From a virus, in IMG/VR virus record IMGVR_UViG_3300020055_000005, positions 62,001-126,000 of that record: a DNA stretch of 64,000 nucleotides. The stretch is one strand, 5' to 3'. The notes beneath the pieces are model-generated. The model was not told the DNA's origin. It ran no database searches and saw nothing but the letters and a program-made list of their open reading frames with translations. The translations under genes and the position numbers were made by a program. Of the stretch, positions 1,560 through 62,638 are shown piece by piece (the stretch's first letter is position 1; the number at the start of each line of letters is the position of its first letter).

Positions 1560-2141
1560 ATGGCAGGTCTATTTGAACAATTTGATGAACTTTTACCAGC
1601 AGAGATAGAAGAAAAATCTGCAGAAAGTATCGATTGGTTCAGAAAGAATCTCAGAACAATAAGATTAAGAGTTGATGAAGTGTCACGTTCACAAGGTGTC
1701 ACTGTTCAACCGTCTGAGATGAAGACAGGAGAGATGTTCTTATACTTGTATGATGCAAAACATAAAGAAACACTTCCATGGTACGACAAGTTTCCGTGCA
1801 TGATTCTCTTAGAGAAGAATGCAAAGGGTTTTATGGGACTTAATCTACACTACATTGCACCTAGATTTCGTGCAAAGTTGTTAGATGAATTATACAAGAT
1901 TAGTACAGACGAAGAACTAGAAGAACGAACTAGATTCAGAATAACATACGAACTATTGAAGAAGATTACAGATTTAAAGTATGGTATTCCTTGTGTTAAG
2001 AAATATTTGTGGGGTCACGTAAACAGTCGTATTCAAAGAGTAGACCCTGAACATTGGGACGTAGTGAGTATGTTACCACTACAAAGATTTAACGAAAATG
2101 CAAACACAGTGTATGCAAACAGTAAGAGGTATTTTAACTAA
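1560..2141 (+). CDS. Conserved tail-module protein (193 aa)
   Basis: Unnamed protein of a type seen in marine T4-like tail clusters. The segment around residues 75-105 (PCMILLEKNAKGFMGLNLHY) is the recognisable conserved block. There is no membrane segment. A late promoter lies just upstream, and its stop overlaps the start of the tail tube-like gene (TAATG), which supports a role in tail or baseplate assembly. The role is inferred from position. Confidence 0.75.
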   Translation: MAGLFEQFDELLPAEIEEKSAESIDWFRKNLRTIRLRVDEVSRSQGVTVQPSEMKTGEMFLYLYDAKHKETLPWYDKFPCMILLEKNAKGFMGLNLHYIAPRFRAKLLDELYKISTDEELEERTRFRITYELLKKITDLKYGIPCVKKYLWGHVNSRIQRVDPEHWDVVSMLPLQRFNENANTVYANSKRYFN

Positions 2142-2935
2142 TGGGATTATTCGACTTTAAAGACAATGCACTTGATCTAGATCAATTCAAATATCATTTC
2201 GATAATGGTGCAAGACCCAATAGATTTGAGGTTGACTTTCATGCACAAAAATTAGGATTAAGTTGGGAAGGTCTAAGAGTAGAATCATGTTCGTTGCCAG
2301 GCAGATCATTAGAAGCATCAGACTTCTCTGAGTACGGACAAATAAGAAAGATGCCATTTAATGTAAGTGATGGTGGAACCGTAGACTTTACATTCTTATG
2401 CGACTCATCTTTTGCAGATAGATTCTTACTAGAGGCATGGCAAAGTGCAATCTACAGTGGTAAAACAGGAAACTTAACTGAAGATGGAAGTGAAGCAGGA
2501 GAAAGTGGTGAAGATCAAGGCCCAACATTTGGGACTCAAGGAACAGCCGCAATCCCATACTTCTCTTACTATAATGATTACGTAGGAGAAGTCGATATCG
2601 TACAATTAAGATTTAATGGAGAGTCAGCATTAAGATATAGACTCTTTGAAGCATACCCTATCGCATACGCACCCATGGAATTGAGTGCTCAAACTAGAGA
2701 TGATGTTATGCGATTTACCGTCACAATGGCATATAGATTCTTCTCAACAGAATACGTTGCAGATAGAACTGCTGGCGGACTACTAAATAAAGGTAGAAAG
2801 ATTTTAGACATCATACTTGATGGTGCAAAACTAGGTAGTAGATTTAACTCTAATGCAGGTAAATTCTACGAAAGACTATCAAATCTTGATGAAAAATTAA
2901 GTAGGTTAGATAATCTATCACGTGGTGGATTATAA
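2141..2935 (+). CDS. Tail tube / baseplate tube-initiator protein (gp19/gp54-like)
   Basis: 264 aa. The N-terminal RPNRFEVDF, the central SCSLPGRSLE and the C-terminal YPIAYAPMELS followed by MRFTVTMAYRFF follow the pattern of T4 tube-fold proteins (gp19, gp48, gp54). At 264 aa it is longer than T4 tube protein gp19 (163 aa) and shorter than gp54 (320 aa), so tube initiator versus tube is not settled. A Gly/Glu-rich insert sits near residues 110-130. It translationally overlaps the preceding gene and is followed by the gp26-like gene. Confidence 0.72.
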   Translation: MGLFDFKDNALDLDQFKYHFDNGARPNRFEVDFHAQKLGLSWEGLRVESCSLPGRSLEASDFSEYGQIRKMPFNVSDGGTVDFTFLCDSSFADRFLLEAWQSAIYSGKTGNLTEDGSEAGESGEDQGPTFGTQGTAAIPYFSYYNDYVGEVDIVQLRFNGESALRYRLFEAYPIAYAPMELSAQTRDDVMRFTVTMAYRFFSTEYVADRTAGGLLNKGRKILDIILDGAKLGSRFNSNAGKFYERLSNLDEKLSRLDNLSRGGL

Positions 2936-2963: not shown

Positions 2964-3671
2964 ATGGCATTACCAATTCAGAATACGCCTAAACATATCT
3001 GCGTATTACCACACTCAGGAGAGGAAGTAGAATACAGACCTTTCTTGGTGAAGGAACAAAAGATACTTGTTTTAGCGAGAGAAAGTGAAAATAATGCAGA
3101 GATTTTCGGTGCAGTTAAAGAATTAATCGGAAACTGTACATTTGGAAAATTAAACGTTGATAAACTTGCATCTATCGACTTAGAATTTTTATTCTTGGCA
3201 ATACGTGCAAAGTCAGTTGGTGAAACTGCAGACGTGACAATTAGTTGTCAAGAAGAAGAGTGTGCAGGTTCAGGACAAGCAACAGTAGGACTAAACGATG
3301 TAGAAGTCGTTGGGTCAGTACCTGAAGATAATAAAATCATGTTAAATGATACTACAGGTGTGACACTTAAAATGCCTACGGTTGCAGATATGAATAAGTA
3401 TTCAGAAGTCCAAGACCAAGCTGACCAAGGACTTGCAATTTTAAAAACATGTCTTGACACAATTTTTGACCAAGAAAATGTTTATGAAGTTGCAGACACT
3501 GACCCTGAAGAGTTAGATGAGTTTATCGAAAGTTTAACACTGGGTCAAGTCGAAACAATCGGAAGATGGTTTGAAGACTTACCTAGATTACAGAAAGATG
3601 TACACTACCAGTGTGGTTTGTGTAATAAAGAACAGAGTAGGACACTCGTAGGACTACAAAGTTTTTTTTAA
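2964..3671 (+). CDS. 26: Baseplate hub subunit gp26-like, likely tail assembly chaperone
   Basis: 235 aa, resembling the T4 baseplate protein family (gp26). An internal pair of cysteines (CQEEEC, about residue 95) and a C-terminal CGLC (about residue 217) could hold zinc. The gene ends LQSFF with a run of eight T directly before the TAA. An open -1 frame continues for 62 codons towards the tape measure gene. That layout is the one used by lambda G/G-T tail assembly chaperones, so both a short and a frameshifted long product are predicted. The gp26 assignment is good; the chaperone role is inference. Confidence 0.8.
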   Translation: MALPIQNTPKHICVLPHSGEEVEYRPFLVKEQKILVLARESENNAEIFGAVKELIGNCTFGKLNVDKLASIDLEFLFLAIRAKSVGETADVTISCQEEECAGSGQATVGLNDVEVVGSVPEDNKIMLNDTTGVTLKMPTVADMNKYSEVQDQADQGLAILKTCLDTIFDQENVYEVADTDPEELDEFIESLTLGQVETIGRWFEDLPRLQKDVHYQCGLCNKEQSRTLVGLQSFF

Positions 3672-3856
3672 TAGCTCTTTCTCATGAAACTTTGGTCAAT
3701 TATTATGAGACCAATTTTCAGATGATGCAACATCATAAGTACAGTCTTACAGAGTTGGACAATATGATGCCATGGGAAAGAGAGGTCTACATTAGACTCT
3801 TGATGAACTATCTTGAAGAAGAGAAGTTGAGACAAGAGAATTCTCGTAGAAGGTAA
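3662..3856 (+). CDS. -1 frameshift extension of the gp26-like protein
   Basis: Read in the -1 frame from the T8 run at 3662-3669, codons continue without stop to TAA at 3854-3856 and encode 62 residues (starting LIALSHETLVNYYETN). There is no usable start with a ribosome site: the first in-frame ATG (3722) would lose the conserved beginning and lacks a Shine-Dalgarno. Slippage on T_TTT_TTT just before the zero-frame TAA would give a fusion of about 297 aa. It sits between the chaperone-like gene and the tape measure. Confidence 0.7.
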   Translation, partial: FFLIALSHETLVNYYETNFQMMQHHKYSLTELDNMMPWEREVYIRLLMNYLEEEKLRQENSRRR

Positions 3857-3905: not shown

Positions 3906-4298
3906 ATGGCAAAAGAAACAATAGAAGTTGGACGAAATGAAGTCGACATTGATCTAGACAAGTACACTAATCTAGTGTTAAAACTGGATGAGGCACAAGA
4001 CAAGATCAAAGAGATGGAAAGAATGTCCAAAGAACTAAAGATCGCAGCCGCTGGTGCGAAACCACAAGAAAAGTTTACTTTTAGTGCATTGTTTATGGAT
4101 GATAACACTATCAATGAAAAATCAATCATTGGTTTTGCATCTTTCTTAATGATGCTTGCATTTGGTATCGTAGACCTAGTGACTGGATTTTGGGGTCAGG
4201 ACATTACTATATCTGACACTATCTACACTTCATTTGTAGTAGTAACCCTAGGTTCATTTGGTATTGCAGAAGCTGGTAAAGCATTCGGAAAACAGTAG
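3906..4298 (+). CDS. Small membrane protein with coiled-coil N-terminus
   Basis: 130 aa. The N-terminal half is charged and helical (about residues 15-50, coiled-coil-like). Two hydrophobic helices follow near residues 72-94 and 101-122. The start is set by GAGG upstream of the ATG. It lies between the frameshifted tail gene and the tape measure. Two helices and small size would allow a holin, but the long N-terminal coil is unusual for one and no family is recognised. Confidence 0.7.
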   Translation: MAKETIEVGRNEVDIDLDKYTNLVLKLDEAQDKIKEMERMSKELKIAAAGAKPQEKFTFSALFMDDNTINEKSIIGFASFLMMLAFGIVDLVTGFWGQDITISDTIYTSFVVVTLGSFGIAEAGKAFGKQ

Positions 4299-4308
4299 GA
4301 ACAAATAA

Positions 4309-6405
4309 ATGGCAGACGACAAACGACTAGAAGATTTAGTAATAGACCCTATTAAATCCTTAAAAAGAGTAGTTGGGGATTTTGCAGGCACTTTCAAAAG
4401 TGCAACTGACCCAGTCGTCATGGCACAAAAAAGATTAACTGGATTTCAAGATCAACTTGCAAGTCTAAGTAATCAATACAAGTCACAACAAGCAGAGAAT
4501 GCACAAGCGCATCAAGAGATGTTAGCAAGTATGAATCTCTCTACCCAAGAACGTGCAGATGTAGAACGGAAGTATCAAGAATCAGTTCAAGAAGCAAGAG
4601 AATTGCAAGATAAGAATGTAAAATATTTGGAAGACATTATTAAGTCTGAAGAAGAGATTGTTAATAACTTTAAAGAACTTGCAACAGAATCAGGTGGTCT
4701 TAGTCGTTTATCTGCAGGTGCAAATAAACTTAATGATGGTATCAAAGGATTATCTTTTGGTTTAGTCGACCTTGGTTCTAATACAGGTAAACTCACTGGA
4801 TTCTTCCAAGGTTTACAAGATGCAGCTTCAGGTTTAACTACAATCGTTTTTGGTGCAGTTGAAGCATTAACTGCACTAGTCGGTCTTGGAATATTAAAAG
4901 AAGACACTGTTGATAAAATCAAAGATGGTATCTCAGGATTCTTCAGTAACTTTAGTAATATGGGAGAAGGATTCCGTGAAAAAGGACAGGGATTCTTAGA
5001 TGGTCTTTTCGGTAAAAAGAAAATTGATAAAGGTGGAAGAGTTAGAGATAAAAAAGGTTTTGCAAAAGGTGACAAAGAAGGTGTTGGTGCAGGTGCAAGT
5101 GTATTTACTGCGTTAACAAATCCAATGGAAGGGTTTAAGAAATCCTTCTTGGGTATATTTGGTAAAAAAGGTATCTTTTCAAAAATATTTACAACACTTA
5201 AAGCTGCTGGTGCCGCATTCCTAGTCGGTGCAAAACGTTTACTTATGGCTGCACTTACATTCGCAGCTTCGACACTCATTACACTTGGTGGTATGTTACT
5301 CGCTGCTACACCATTCATCCTAATCGGTATCGCAGCCGCAGCTCTTGTTGTACTCGCATATCAAGTATTAAAGAAATTTGATGAACAGTTCCCTTGGTTC
5401 TTTGATACACTTGCATGGTTCTTTGGTAAGATATACGAGTTCGGTAAAGTTATTGTAGGTAGTATATGGGGAGGACTTGAGTCAACCTTTAACTTTATTA
5501 CTTCACTCTTTGAGTTTGATGAGGATACTAATTTATTCAAACGATTGATAGACATTGTAATGTTACCTCTCAACATGGCGATTAATTTCATATTAGGAAT
5601 CTTTGGATGGGATGACCCTGATGAACCATTTACATTTACTGGGTTTCTATGGAAAATAGTAACAGGTGCATGGGATTGGATTAAGAGTATCTTTGGATTT
5701 GCAAAAGAAGGAATGGAAGAGAGTGGTGGTCTCATGTCATGGTTAGGTGGTATCGCTGGACGTGTATGGGATTGGGTTAAGAGTAAGTTTGGATTCGCAA
5801 GAGAAAAGATGATTGAGAATTCAGAAGGATTTATGTCATGGTTAAGTGGTATTGGTTCACGTGCATGGGATTGGATTAAGAGTAAGTTCGGTTTTGATAA
5901 AGAGAAGATGCAGGCAAATGCCGAGAAAATGAATGAAATGGTTCAGGCTGCATGGAACAAAGTTCAAGAGTGGTGGGGAAGTATGACCGACAAACTCAAA
6001 AATGCATGGAGTGACACTAAAGAATGGTTCGGTGACAAGTGGGATGCTGCAAAAGAATGGGGTTCAGACTTATTAGATGGAAAAGAAAAAGGTGGCCCAG
6101 TATCTGCAAACACACCTTACATGGTTGGTGAAGCAGGCCCTGAAGTGTTTCAACCGTCTACAGGTGGACGAATTATTCCAAACGATTCATTAGGATTTAC
6201 ATCTGCATCGAATGTTGCATCAGCATTAGCAGATATGATAAGTGTGAGAGATTCTAATGCAAGTGGTGGTGGGACTAATGCAGTTTCCCAAGTGTTGAGT
6301 ATGGATAATACAAGTAATCAATCTTATAATTTTACATCAGGAAATAAGACTACAAGTAATGACGATGCTATACTACAAAAAACTGCAATGATTCAGTATA
6401 GTTAA
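4309..6405 (+). CDS. Tape measure protein
   Basis: 698 aa, the longest tail gene here. The N-terminus (residues 1-130) is coiled coil and Gln-rich. A hydrophobic block of several helices covers about residues 290-355. A tandem repeat of about 33 residues beginning WDW(I/V)KS(I/K)FGF occurs three times (about 454, 486 and 519). The C-terminal GGPVSANTPYMVGEAGPEVF with PSTGGRIIPN is a classic tape measure ending. It sets tail length and can form a channel in the host membrane. It follows the predicted frameshifting gene, as in other tailed phages, and converges with the next gene with a 4-base overlap. Confidence 0.9.
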   Translation: MADDKRLEDLVIDPIKSLKRVVGDFAGTFKSATDPVVMAQKRLTGFQDQLASLSNQYKSQQAENAQAHQEMLASMNLSTQERADVERKYQESVQEARELQDKNVKYLEDIIKSEEEIVNNFKELATESGGLSRLSAGANKLNDGIKGLSFGLVDLGSNTGKLTGFFQGLQDAASGLTTIVFGAVEALTALVGLGILKEDTVDKIKDGISGFFSNFSNMGEGFREKGQGFLDGLFGKKKIDKGGRVRDKKGFAKGDKEGVGAGASVFTALTNPMEGFKKSFLGIFGKKGIFSKIFTTLKAAGAAFLVGAKRLLMAALTFAASTLITLGGMLLAATPFILIGIAAAALVVLAYQVLKKFDEQFPWFFDTLAWFFGKIYEFGKVIVGSIWGGLESTFNFITSLFEFDEDTNLFKRLIDIVMLPLNMAINFILGIFGWDDPDEPFTFTGFLWKIVTGAWDWIKSIFGFAKEGMEESGGLMSWLGGIAGRVWDWVKSKFGFAREKMIENSEGFMSWLSGIGSRAWDWIKSKFGFDKEKMQANAEKMNEMVQAAWNKVQEWWGSMTDKLKNAWSDTKEWFGDKWDAAKEWGSDLLDGKEKGGPVSANTPYMVGEAGPEVFQPSTGGRIIPNDSLGFTSASNVASALADMISVRDSNASGGGTNAVSQVLSMDNTSNQSYNFTSGNKTTSNDDAILQKTAMIQYS

Positions 6406-6631: not shown

Positions 6632-6865
6632 TTAAATCCTTCTGTAACCTTTCTGTTCTGCTCTCTTAGCGTCTAGTTTCTTTCTACGTTTGATTTGTTG
6701 ATTTCTTTCGTTACGTTTTTCGTTAGGTTTAATATAATATTCCCTAGAACGAACTTCCTGTACTATTCCTGCACGATCACAGGCTTTCTTGAATCTACGT
6801 AACATCCTGTCGAAGGGCTCAACATTTTTTGATTTCGGATGTTTTTTTGGACTTACACTTGGCAT
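6632..6865 (-). CDS. rpsU: Ribosomal protein bS21
   Basis: 77 aa. The core [31 protein letters not shown] and a basic tail match bacterial bS21, a late-joining 30S protein near the anti-Shine-Dalgarno end of 16S rRNA. Phage copies are known from marine phages and may exchange into host ribosomes to favour phage mRNA. The ATG lies exactly 6 bases after TATAAT with no ribosome site, so the mRNA is predicted to be leaderless. The family call is firm; host takeover is inference. Confidence 0.92.
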
Positions 6866-61635: not shown

Positions 61636-62638
61636 ATTTAAAGTAATCTTGTACCACTGTTTCTATTTGTTCCATCACCTCATCAGTGAAGTATTTTTCA
61701 GGGTTGTTATTAATTGTCTTACCAAATTCTGTTTTACCATTTGGTAGTTCAACTCTTGTTGAAGACTTTTTGAAGATACCACTTGCAAGTGCAAGGTCTA
61801 GTAGACCATAGTATCTATCAAGTCCTTTGTCGTATGTCAATCTAACATCTACGACTCTGTTCTCAACAGTCAACCTACTCTTTGCATTCTTACAATGAAT
61901 GATATTACCAATGACTTCCGTTCCTTCTTTCTCTTTCTTCTTTGAAAGATAGACAATGGAAGAGGCTGCATATTTGAGACCTGAACCACCACCCATTTCT
62001 TTCTGAGGGAACATAGAACCAATCACATCATAAGTGTGGTTAGTTACAATCATTGGAACTCCTGCTCGTCCTAGTTTAAGAGTTAAGACTCTGAATGCAC
62101 CTTTTACAATCTGTGCTCTCGTCATGTCTCTTGTCTCTTTACCATCTGCAGTGTCTTCGATTTCTTTGGTTGTTGATAACATACCAAGTGAATCAAGAAC
62201 GAACATCATAGGTGGACGTTTGTCTTCAGGGGTTTCGATATACTTATCAAGAATATTAATGGACTGTGTCCTAAATTCTTGTACGGTTACGACTGGAACA
62301 ATCACCACTCTATTTGCATCAATACCTCTGTCTTCAATCATTTCTTTACTGATTGCAGATTCTGATTCAAAGTAGATTACGGCCGCCTCAGGATGGTCTT
62401 CCAAGAATTGTTTTACCATTCCTAGTGCGAAAAAAGTTTTACCAGTTGCAGATTCACCTGCGATTGCAGTGATCTTGTTCTTGGGTAGTCCACCATAAAG
62501 TGAACCACTGAGTAATGCATTAAAGATGTATGACCCACTATCTATGAATGAATCAACATCACCAGCGGAAACACCATCTGCGACGATGGATGCATATTCG
62601 TTCCCACTCGATTTAACTAAGTCTTTAATAAACGACAT
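61586..62638 (-). CDS. uvsX: RecA-like recombinase UvsX
   Basis: 350 aa (T4 391). Walker [14 protein letters not shown] (about residue 61), FESESAI, Walker [12 protein letters not shown], and [31 protein letters not shown] for DNA-binding loops. Drives strand exchange and recombination-dependent replication. GGAG ribosome site; promoter and palindrome upstream. Confidence 0.96.

Follow-up and report, generated by a model that had tools for sequence, protein, structure and literature searches.

A predicted −1 frameshift from gp26 into gp51 in a T4-like phage and its conservation among T4 relatives

The gp26/gp51 junction and its neighbors

The window, which is the whole stretch of 64,000 nucleotides that was analyzed (positions 62,001 to 126,000 of IMG/VR record IMGVR_UViG_3300020055_000005), contains a run of tail genes in the order tail tube, chaperone pair, small membrane-type gene and tape measure (Table 1). 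The zero-frame gene of the pair encodes gp26, which scores 175.8 bits to PF12322 (T4_baseplate; curated cut-off 24.5; E=1.3e-51), matches phrog_150 with E=2e-55 and aligns with T4 gp26 in hhalign with E=2e-18. Its AF2 model has a pLDDT of 93.6. Sequence and fold searches of the PDB with gp26 returned nothing significant and no solved structure resembling it (best fold match E 0.2), and the named matches in a BFVD fold search were mostly gp26-type baseplate/chaperone proteins.

Table 1. Features at and around the gp26/gp51 junction (window coordinates)
Feature	Position	Strand	Evidence or remark
Tail tube protein gene, upstream neighbor	2141..2935	+	phrog_45 tail tube, E=2e-27
gp26, zero-frame gene, 235 aa, putative short chaperone form (TAC-N)	2964..3671	+	PF12322; phrog_150; SD ATGAGGAA 8 nt before ATG
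SD-like element CGTAGGAC, core AGGA 3650-3653; candidate stimulator upstream of slip site	3647..3654	+	−3.9 kcal/mol to anti-SD
Slippery heptamer T_TTT_TTT	3662..3668	+	within T-run 3662-3669
Zero-frame stop TAA immediately 3' of heptamer	3669..3671	+	next codon TAG
gp51 domain in −1 frame, 62 codons; predicted C-terminal extension of long form	3668..3856	+	phrog_634, E=8.6e-27
Small gene, apparent membrane segment (read from sequence by eye)	3906..4298	+	no family match
Tape measure protein gene, downstream neighbor	4309..6405	+	phrog_58 tail length tape measure, E=5e-15

The 3' end of gp26 reads GGA CTA CAA AGT TTT TTT TAA. A G at 3661 is followed by the eight T's and then by AATAG, and the last zero-frame codons before the stop are AGT (3660-3662), TTT (3663-3665) and TTT (3666-3668). 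The −1 frame from 3668 translates as LIALSHETLVNYYETNFQMMQHHKYSLTELDNMMPWEREVYIRLLMNYLEEEKLRQENSRRR and ends with a stop codon at 3854-3856. The eight T's, the zero-frame TAA and the open −1 frame of 62 codons are therefore as the preliminary description gave them. That description treated the 62 codons as a tail of gp26; they are predicted to extend gp26, but they are not a new tail, being the known gp51 domain (phrog_634, "baseplate hub assembly catalyst"). The tail matches 568 phage records, and judged from these sequence comparisons the match of the −1 frame to gp51 is far beyond chance. Its predicted model consists of three helices (pLDDT 77).

The tail ends just before the membrane-type gene and the tape measure gene, as had also been described; the ATG of the former lies 49 bases past the −1 frame stop. 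Small open reading frames in a position like that of this gene occur in Melnitz, phiM7, phiM9 and Cr30. Two other genes in the neighborhood may be mentioned. A cytidylyltransferase gene (77-727, + strand; PF02348, E=6e-30) that is CMP-KDO synthetase-like lies beside the tail genes and is possibly a surface-sugar gene carried by the phage. A homologue of ribosomal protein S21 (6632-6865, − strand; PF01165, E=9e-14) is encoded between the tape measure gene and gp32. S21 has a role in how the small ribosomal subunit recognizes mRNA, and one might speculate that the phage homologue bears on initiation or on an SD-like frameshift stimulator.

Conservation of the −1 frame and its signals

To compare this junction with others, loci were fetched with a gp26 alignment and, independently, with an alignment of the tail, and isolate genomes were added, for a total of 168 loci. 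These comprise 147 distinct junctions and 116 representatives below 70% gp26 identity (median 37% gp26 identity). The FF motif is part of one of the two patterns used in the gp26 search, and so the gp26-selected half of the loci is biased to Phe-Phe, although not to any codon choice, while the half selected by the tail is free of this bias. The gp51 domain is in the −1 frame of gp26 in all 168 loci, including those fetched by the tail domain alone. An in-frame T_TTT_TTN is present in all 147 distinct junctions, with C as the last base in 78, T in 53 and A in 16, and a zero-frame stop follows the heptamer after 0 or 1 codon in 142 of them. Differences between related tails fall by −1-frame codon position in the order 3 > 1 > 2 (35101, 18836 and 8220, from pairs that are not independent).

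The codon choice at the site is also constrained. The codon before the slippery codons is AGT, AAT, GAT, TCT, GCT or GGT and thus ends in T in 116/116 representatives, whereas T-ending codons for the same amino acids make up only 32-76% elsewhere in gp26 (log10 P=−27.8, or P about 1e-28, under codon usage). Likewise, the first Phe codon is TTT in all 116 representatives (log10 P=−15.7). These P values treat the representatives as independent and hence are optimistic, but the pattern itself is without exceptions. The other FF/FL pairs in gp26 have T_TTT_TTN in only 15 of 321 cases.

Across the relatives, an SD-like element precedes the heptamer by about 9 nt. Its mean duplex energy with the anti-SD is −6.0 kcal/mol versus −4.4 to −4.5 in synonymous-codon shuffles (z about −9; P=3e-10), and the window's own element is weaker than this mean (Table 1). 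The same preference is visible in the codons used for Glu-Gly, which are GAG-GGN in 50 of 71 junctions (70%) versus 11 of 57 pairs (19%) elsewhere in gp26 (Fisher P=7e-9). Across the relatives, no tail start codon lies at a distance at which the element would suit initiation. Since frameshifting in E. coli dnaX is stimulated by an internal SD upstream of the site (PMC5600365), it is plausible from this analysis that the SD-like element stimulates frameshifting here as well. Downstream, the RNA from +11 to +71 folds better than shuffled sequence (mean z=−1.55, versus −0.1 to −0.5 inside gp26; −0.98 with codon-preserving shuffles). A conserved downstream hairpin was considered for the window's clade, with 68% of cells paired, but its covariation was weak compared with shuffles; consequently, we claim only a general excess of folding.

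Usable starts for the tail are uncommon. The window has no −1 start codon with an SD near the beginning of the tail; the first candidates are a TTG at 3692, which has no SD, and an ATG at 3722 with only −2.7 kcal/mol, and the preliminary description was right that the tail lacks a ribosome site. By comparison, SD energies range from −4.2 to −6.3 kcal/mol for the genes starting at 2141, 2964, 3906 and 4309. Among the 116 representatives, 30 have an early ATG, GTG or TTG in the −1 frame and an SD accompanies it in only three, while 78% of the gp26 start codons have one. Homologues that give the tail an ATG and ribosome site of its own were looked for as well; a minority do have an ATG (24/147 junctions), but overall the homologues do not follow this arrangement.

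Proposed mechanism and its alternatives

These observations lead us to predict, with a probability of roughly 0.9, that a −1 programmed ribosomal frameshift at T_TTT_TTT makes a minor long gp26-gp51 chaperone. Most ribosomes would translate the 235-aa gp26 and terminate at the TAA. A minority would slip back one base at the heptamer, with tRNA-Phe occupying both the P and the A site over TTT_TTT, presumably aided by the SD-like sequence upstream and perhaps by downstream structure, and would then read the −1 frame through gp51 to give a predicted 297-aa fusion. The short (TAC-N) and long (TAC-NC) forms would cover the tape measure protein and bring in tail-tube subunits in the manner of gpG and gpGT. 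We infer the occurrence and efficiency of slippage and also that the two forms act as chaperones in this phage, the last because its gp26 and gp51 are homologous to those of T4. Ribosomal slippage joining gp26 to the tail had been proposed in the preliminary description, which also called for a comparison of gp26 homologues; both the slippery run and the −1 frame proved to be conserved. That description further considered a slippage-dependent gp26 notable in a T4-like phage. The slippery site is indeed here, but this phage is not alone in having it, as it is the rule among the loci compared.

The gp51 domain could instead be a separate small protein, its translation reinitiated or coupled once ribosomes have finished gp26. 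This is how it is annotated in most GenBank records, with a separate gp51 CDS in P-SSM2, S-RSM4, S-PM2, Melnitz, phiM9 and others, and some relatives have an ATG at the junction or a TGATG or TAATG stop-start overlap. However, independent initiation leaves the invariant heptamer, the T-ending preceding codon and the upstream SD-like element unexplained, and a start codon with an SD is rare among the representatives. In the window, initiation at TTG 3692 would have to do without an SD and initiation at ATG 3722 would remove the conserved SHETL block; moreover, T4 gp51 itself has an N-terminal gp26-like domain. We therefore regard a separately initiated gp51 as unlikely, but coupled reinitiation could coexist with frameshifting in relatives that have starts or overlaps. 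In six non-cyanophage T4 relatives (L171, L172, L174, L175, L176 and L185) the heptamer is accompanied by a TGATG stop-start overlap at the end of gp26. Because several non-cyanophage relatives have such stop-ATG overlaps (TGATG/TAATG), coupling could add to frameshifting there.

The T-run itself invites two other explanations. On a run of eight T's, slippage by the polymerase is conceivable, and an added U would yield mRNAs that read on into gp51, as the preliminary description had also offered. T8 is shared by the window and its nearest relatives, but only T6, with C or A as the next base, is present in 68 of the 116 representatives, and T7 in another 19; furthermore, what is conserved is a codon-phased heptamer together with an SD-like element, and the latter acts on ribosomes and not on a polymerase. 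Polymerase slippage is thus a poor general explanation and very improbable. Homopolymers of eight T's are also prone to error, and a mistake in sequencing or assembly could split a single gp26-gp51 gene. Copies of the phage with seven or nine T's were looked for and not found; the T8 junction is identical in two IMG/VR contigs from other metagenomes, and the frame relation is common to all 168 loci and to many isolate genomes, most with only T6. Such an error is hardly credible.

T4, other frameshift systems and the meaning of gp51

The arrangement also occurs in more distant relatives of T4. T_TTT_TTN followed by a −1 tail is present in Vibrio phages VH7D, 1.081.O and K567, Aeromonas phage Ahp1_CNU-2021, Pseudomonas phage Astolliot, Stenotrophomonas phage Moby, Acidovorax phage ACP17, Caulobacter phage Cr30, Sinorhizobium phages phiM7 and phiM9, and Rhizobium phages N34 and AF3. 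As a point against the proposal, a −1 tail without T_TTT_TTN occurs in Kuttervirus S8 (L177, about 3238-3420) and Cba120 (L182, about 3240-3420) and in Vibrio phage D504 (L179, about 3155-3350). In the two kutterviruses (Ackermannviridae) and D504, ATT TTC or CTT TTC precedes the stop, and the tail is un- or only partly annotated. Cyanophage records in GenBank, such as those of S-CAM1 (L007), Melnitz (L008) and S-RSM4 (L009), leave gp51 unannotated or give it an internal start. None of the 24 annotated records examined marks a joined frameshift CDS or ribosomal slippage at the site.

T4 and Aeromonas phage 25 display a different arrangement. In both, gp26 has no tail of its own, and gp51 (249 aa), a separate gene in divergent orientation, consists of a gp26-like domain fused in frame to the tail; the window's tail aligns with gp51 of Aeromonas phage 25 with E=3e-9 and with T4 gp51 with E=2e-4 (hhalign). 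This explains the earlier remark that T4 itself is not thought to frameshift in gp26. A search of the window's own record found a single gp26 match and no separate gp51 gene with a gp26-like N-terminal domain. T4 and this phage share homologous gp26 and gp51 C-terminal domains but differ in that one gene plus a frameshift would give both forms here, whereas T4 appears, from its sequence, to obtain the long form by duplication and fusion. The chaperone genes that Vladimirov and colleagues described are presumably gp26 and gp51, which is consistent with this T4 fusion. A phylogenetic tree groups the T4-type proteins together on long branches that may attract, and for this reason we make no claim about the direction or number of switches between frameshift and fusion.

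The locus resembles the lambda G/GT system (Levin 1993, Xu 2004), also a −1 frameshift, in lying between the tail tube and tape measure genes, as in the lambda order V-G-T-H, in joining a short zero-frame protein to a −1 C-terminal domain reached by slippage, and in having a second ORF without an SD-backed start of its own. It differs in its slippery sequence, in the zero-frame stop that abuts the heptamer and in the upstream SD-like element, and the lambda proteins have no demonstrated sequence similarity to gp26 or gp51. In lambda, gpG and gpGT are made in a ratio of 30:1 and are both absent from virions; through the portion they have in common, both bind the tape measure protein, and gpGT binds the tail tube subunit with its T domain (PMC5009743). 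The E. coli dnaX site likewise combines a slippery heptamer with an internal SD upstream of it and structure on its 3' side (PMC5600365), but the heptamer of this locus is U_UUU_UUN instead of A_AAA_AAG, and it is the long form that would be the frameshift product here. The tail assembly chaperone (TAC) of phage Adele (Vandenendeviridae/Andersonviridae, GTTTTT motif; PMC12846349) likewise has poly-T at the 3' end of TAC-N and, ahead of the tape measure gene, an open −1 frame that routine annotation missed; it comes from different phage families and is compared by architecture and not by gp26 homology.

Frameshifts of this type are already known in T4-like phages, as far as the citing papers convey. 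According to PMC10885494 and PMC12846349, Vladimirov, Gautam and Davidson (2022) dealt with the tail assembly chaperones of T4-like phages; PMC12846349 credits them with poly-T −1 frameshift signals in T4-like TAC-N genes, and the PRFect paper (PMC10885494) states that a fusion gene replaces frameshifting in some T4-like phages. Relative to that work as cited, the breadth of the conservation and the SD-like element are new here. A 2016 review considered lambda-type G-T frameshifting widespread "except T4" (PMC5009743).

In this marine T4-like phage, "gp51" is almost certainly, by sequence, a frameshift extension of gp26 and not a separate gene, and the arrangement is conserved among marine T4-like phages. 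We also think it likely that in most of the T4 superfamily, the T4-proper lineage excepted, gp51 is a C-terminal domain that ribosomes add to gp26 by frameshifting at a site resembling that of dnaX (internal SD with T_TTT_TTN), and that the T4 lineage swapped recoding for a duplicated gene fused in frame. According to Sullivan et al. (2010; PMC3037559), who gave no explanation, cyanophage gp51 reaches only about 20% of the usual length, and the copies in cyanophages and marine vibriophages are without the first approximately 200 residues. Reading gp51 as a frameshift domain, if true, would explain why gp51 in cyanophages and marine vibriophages has long been noted as "80% truncated"; the missing N-terminal part would be gp26 itself, which settles the most likely identity of the short gp51. 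A lambda-type frameshift is seemingly used by very abundant ocean phages, and T4 seemingly has a substitute for it.
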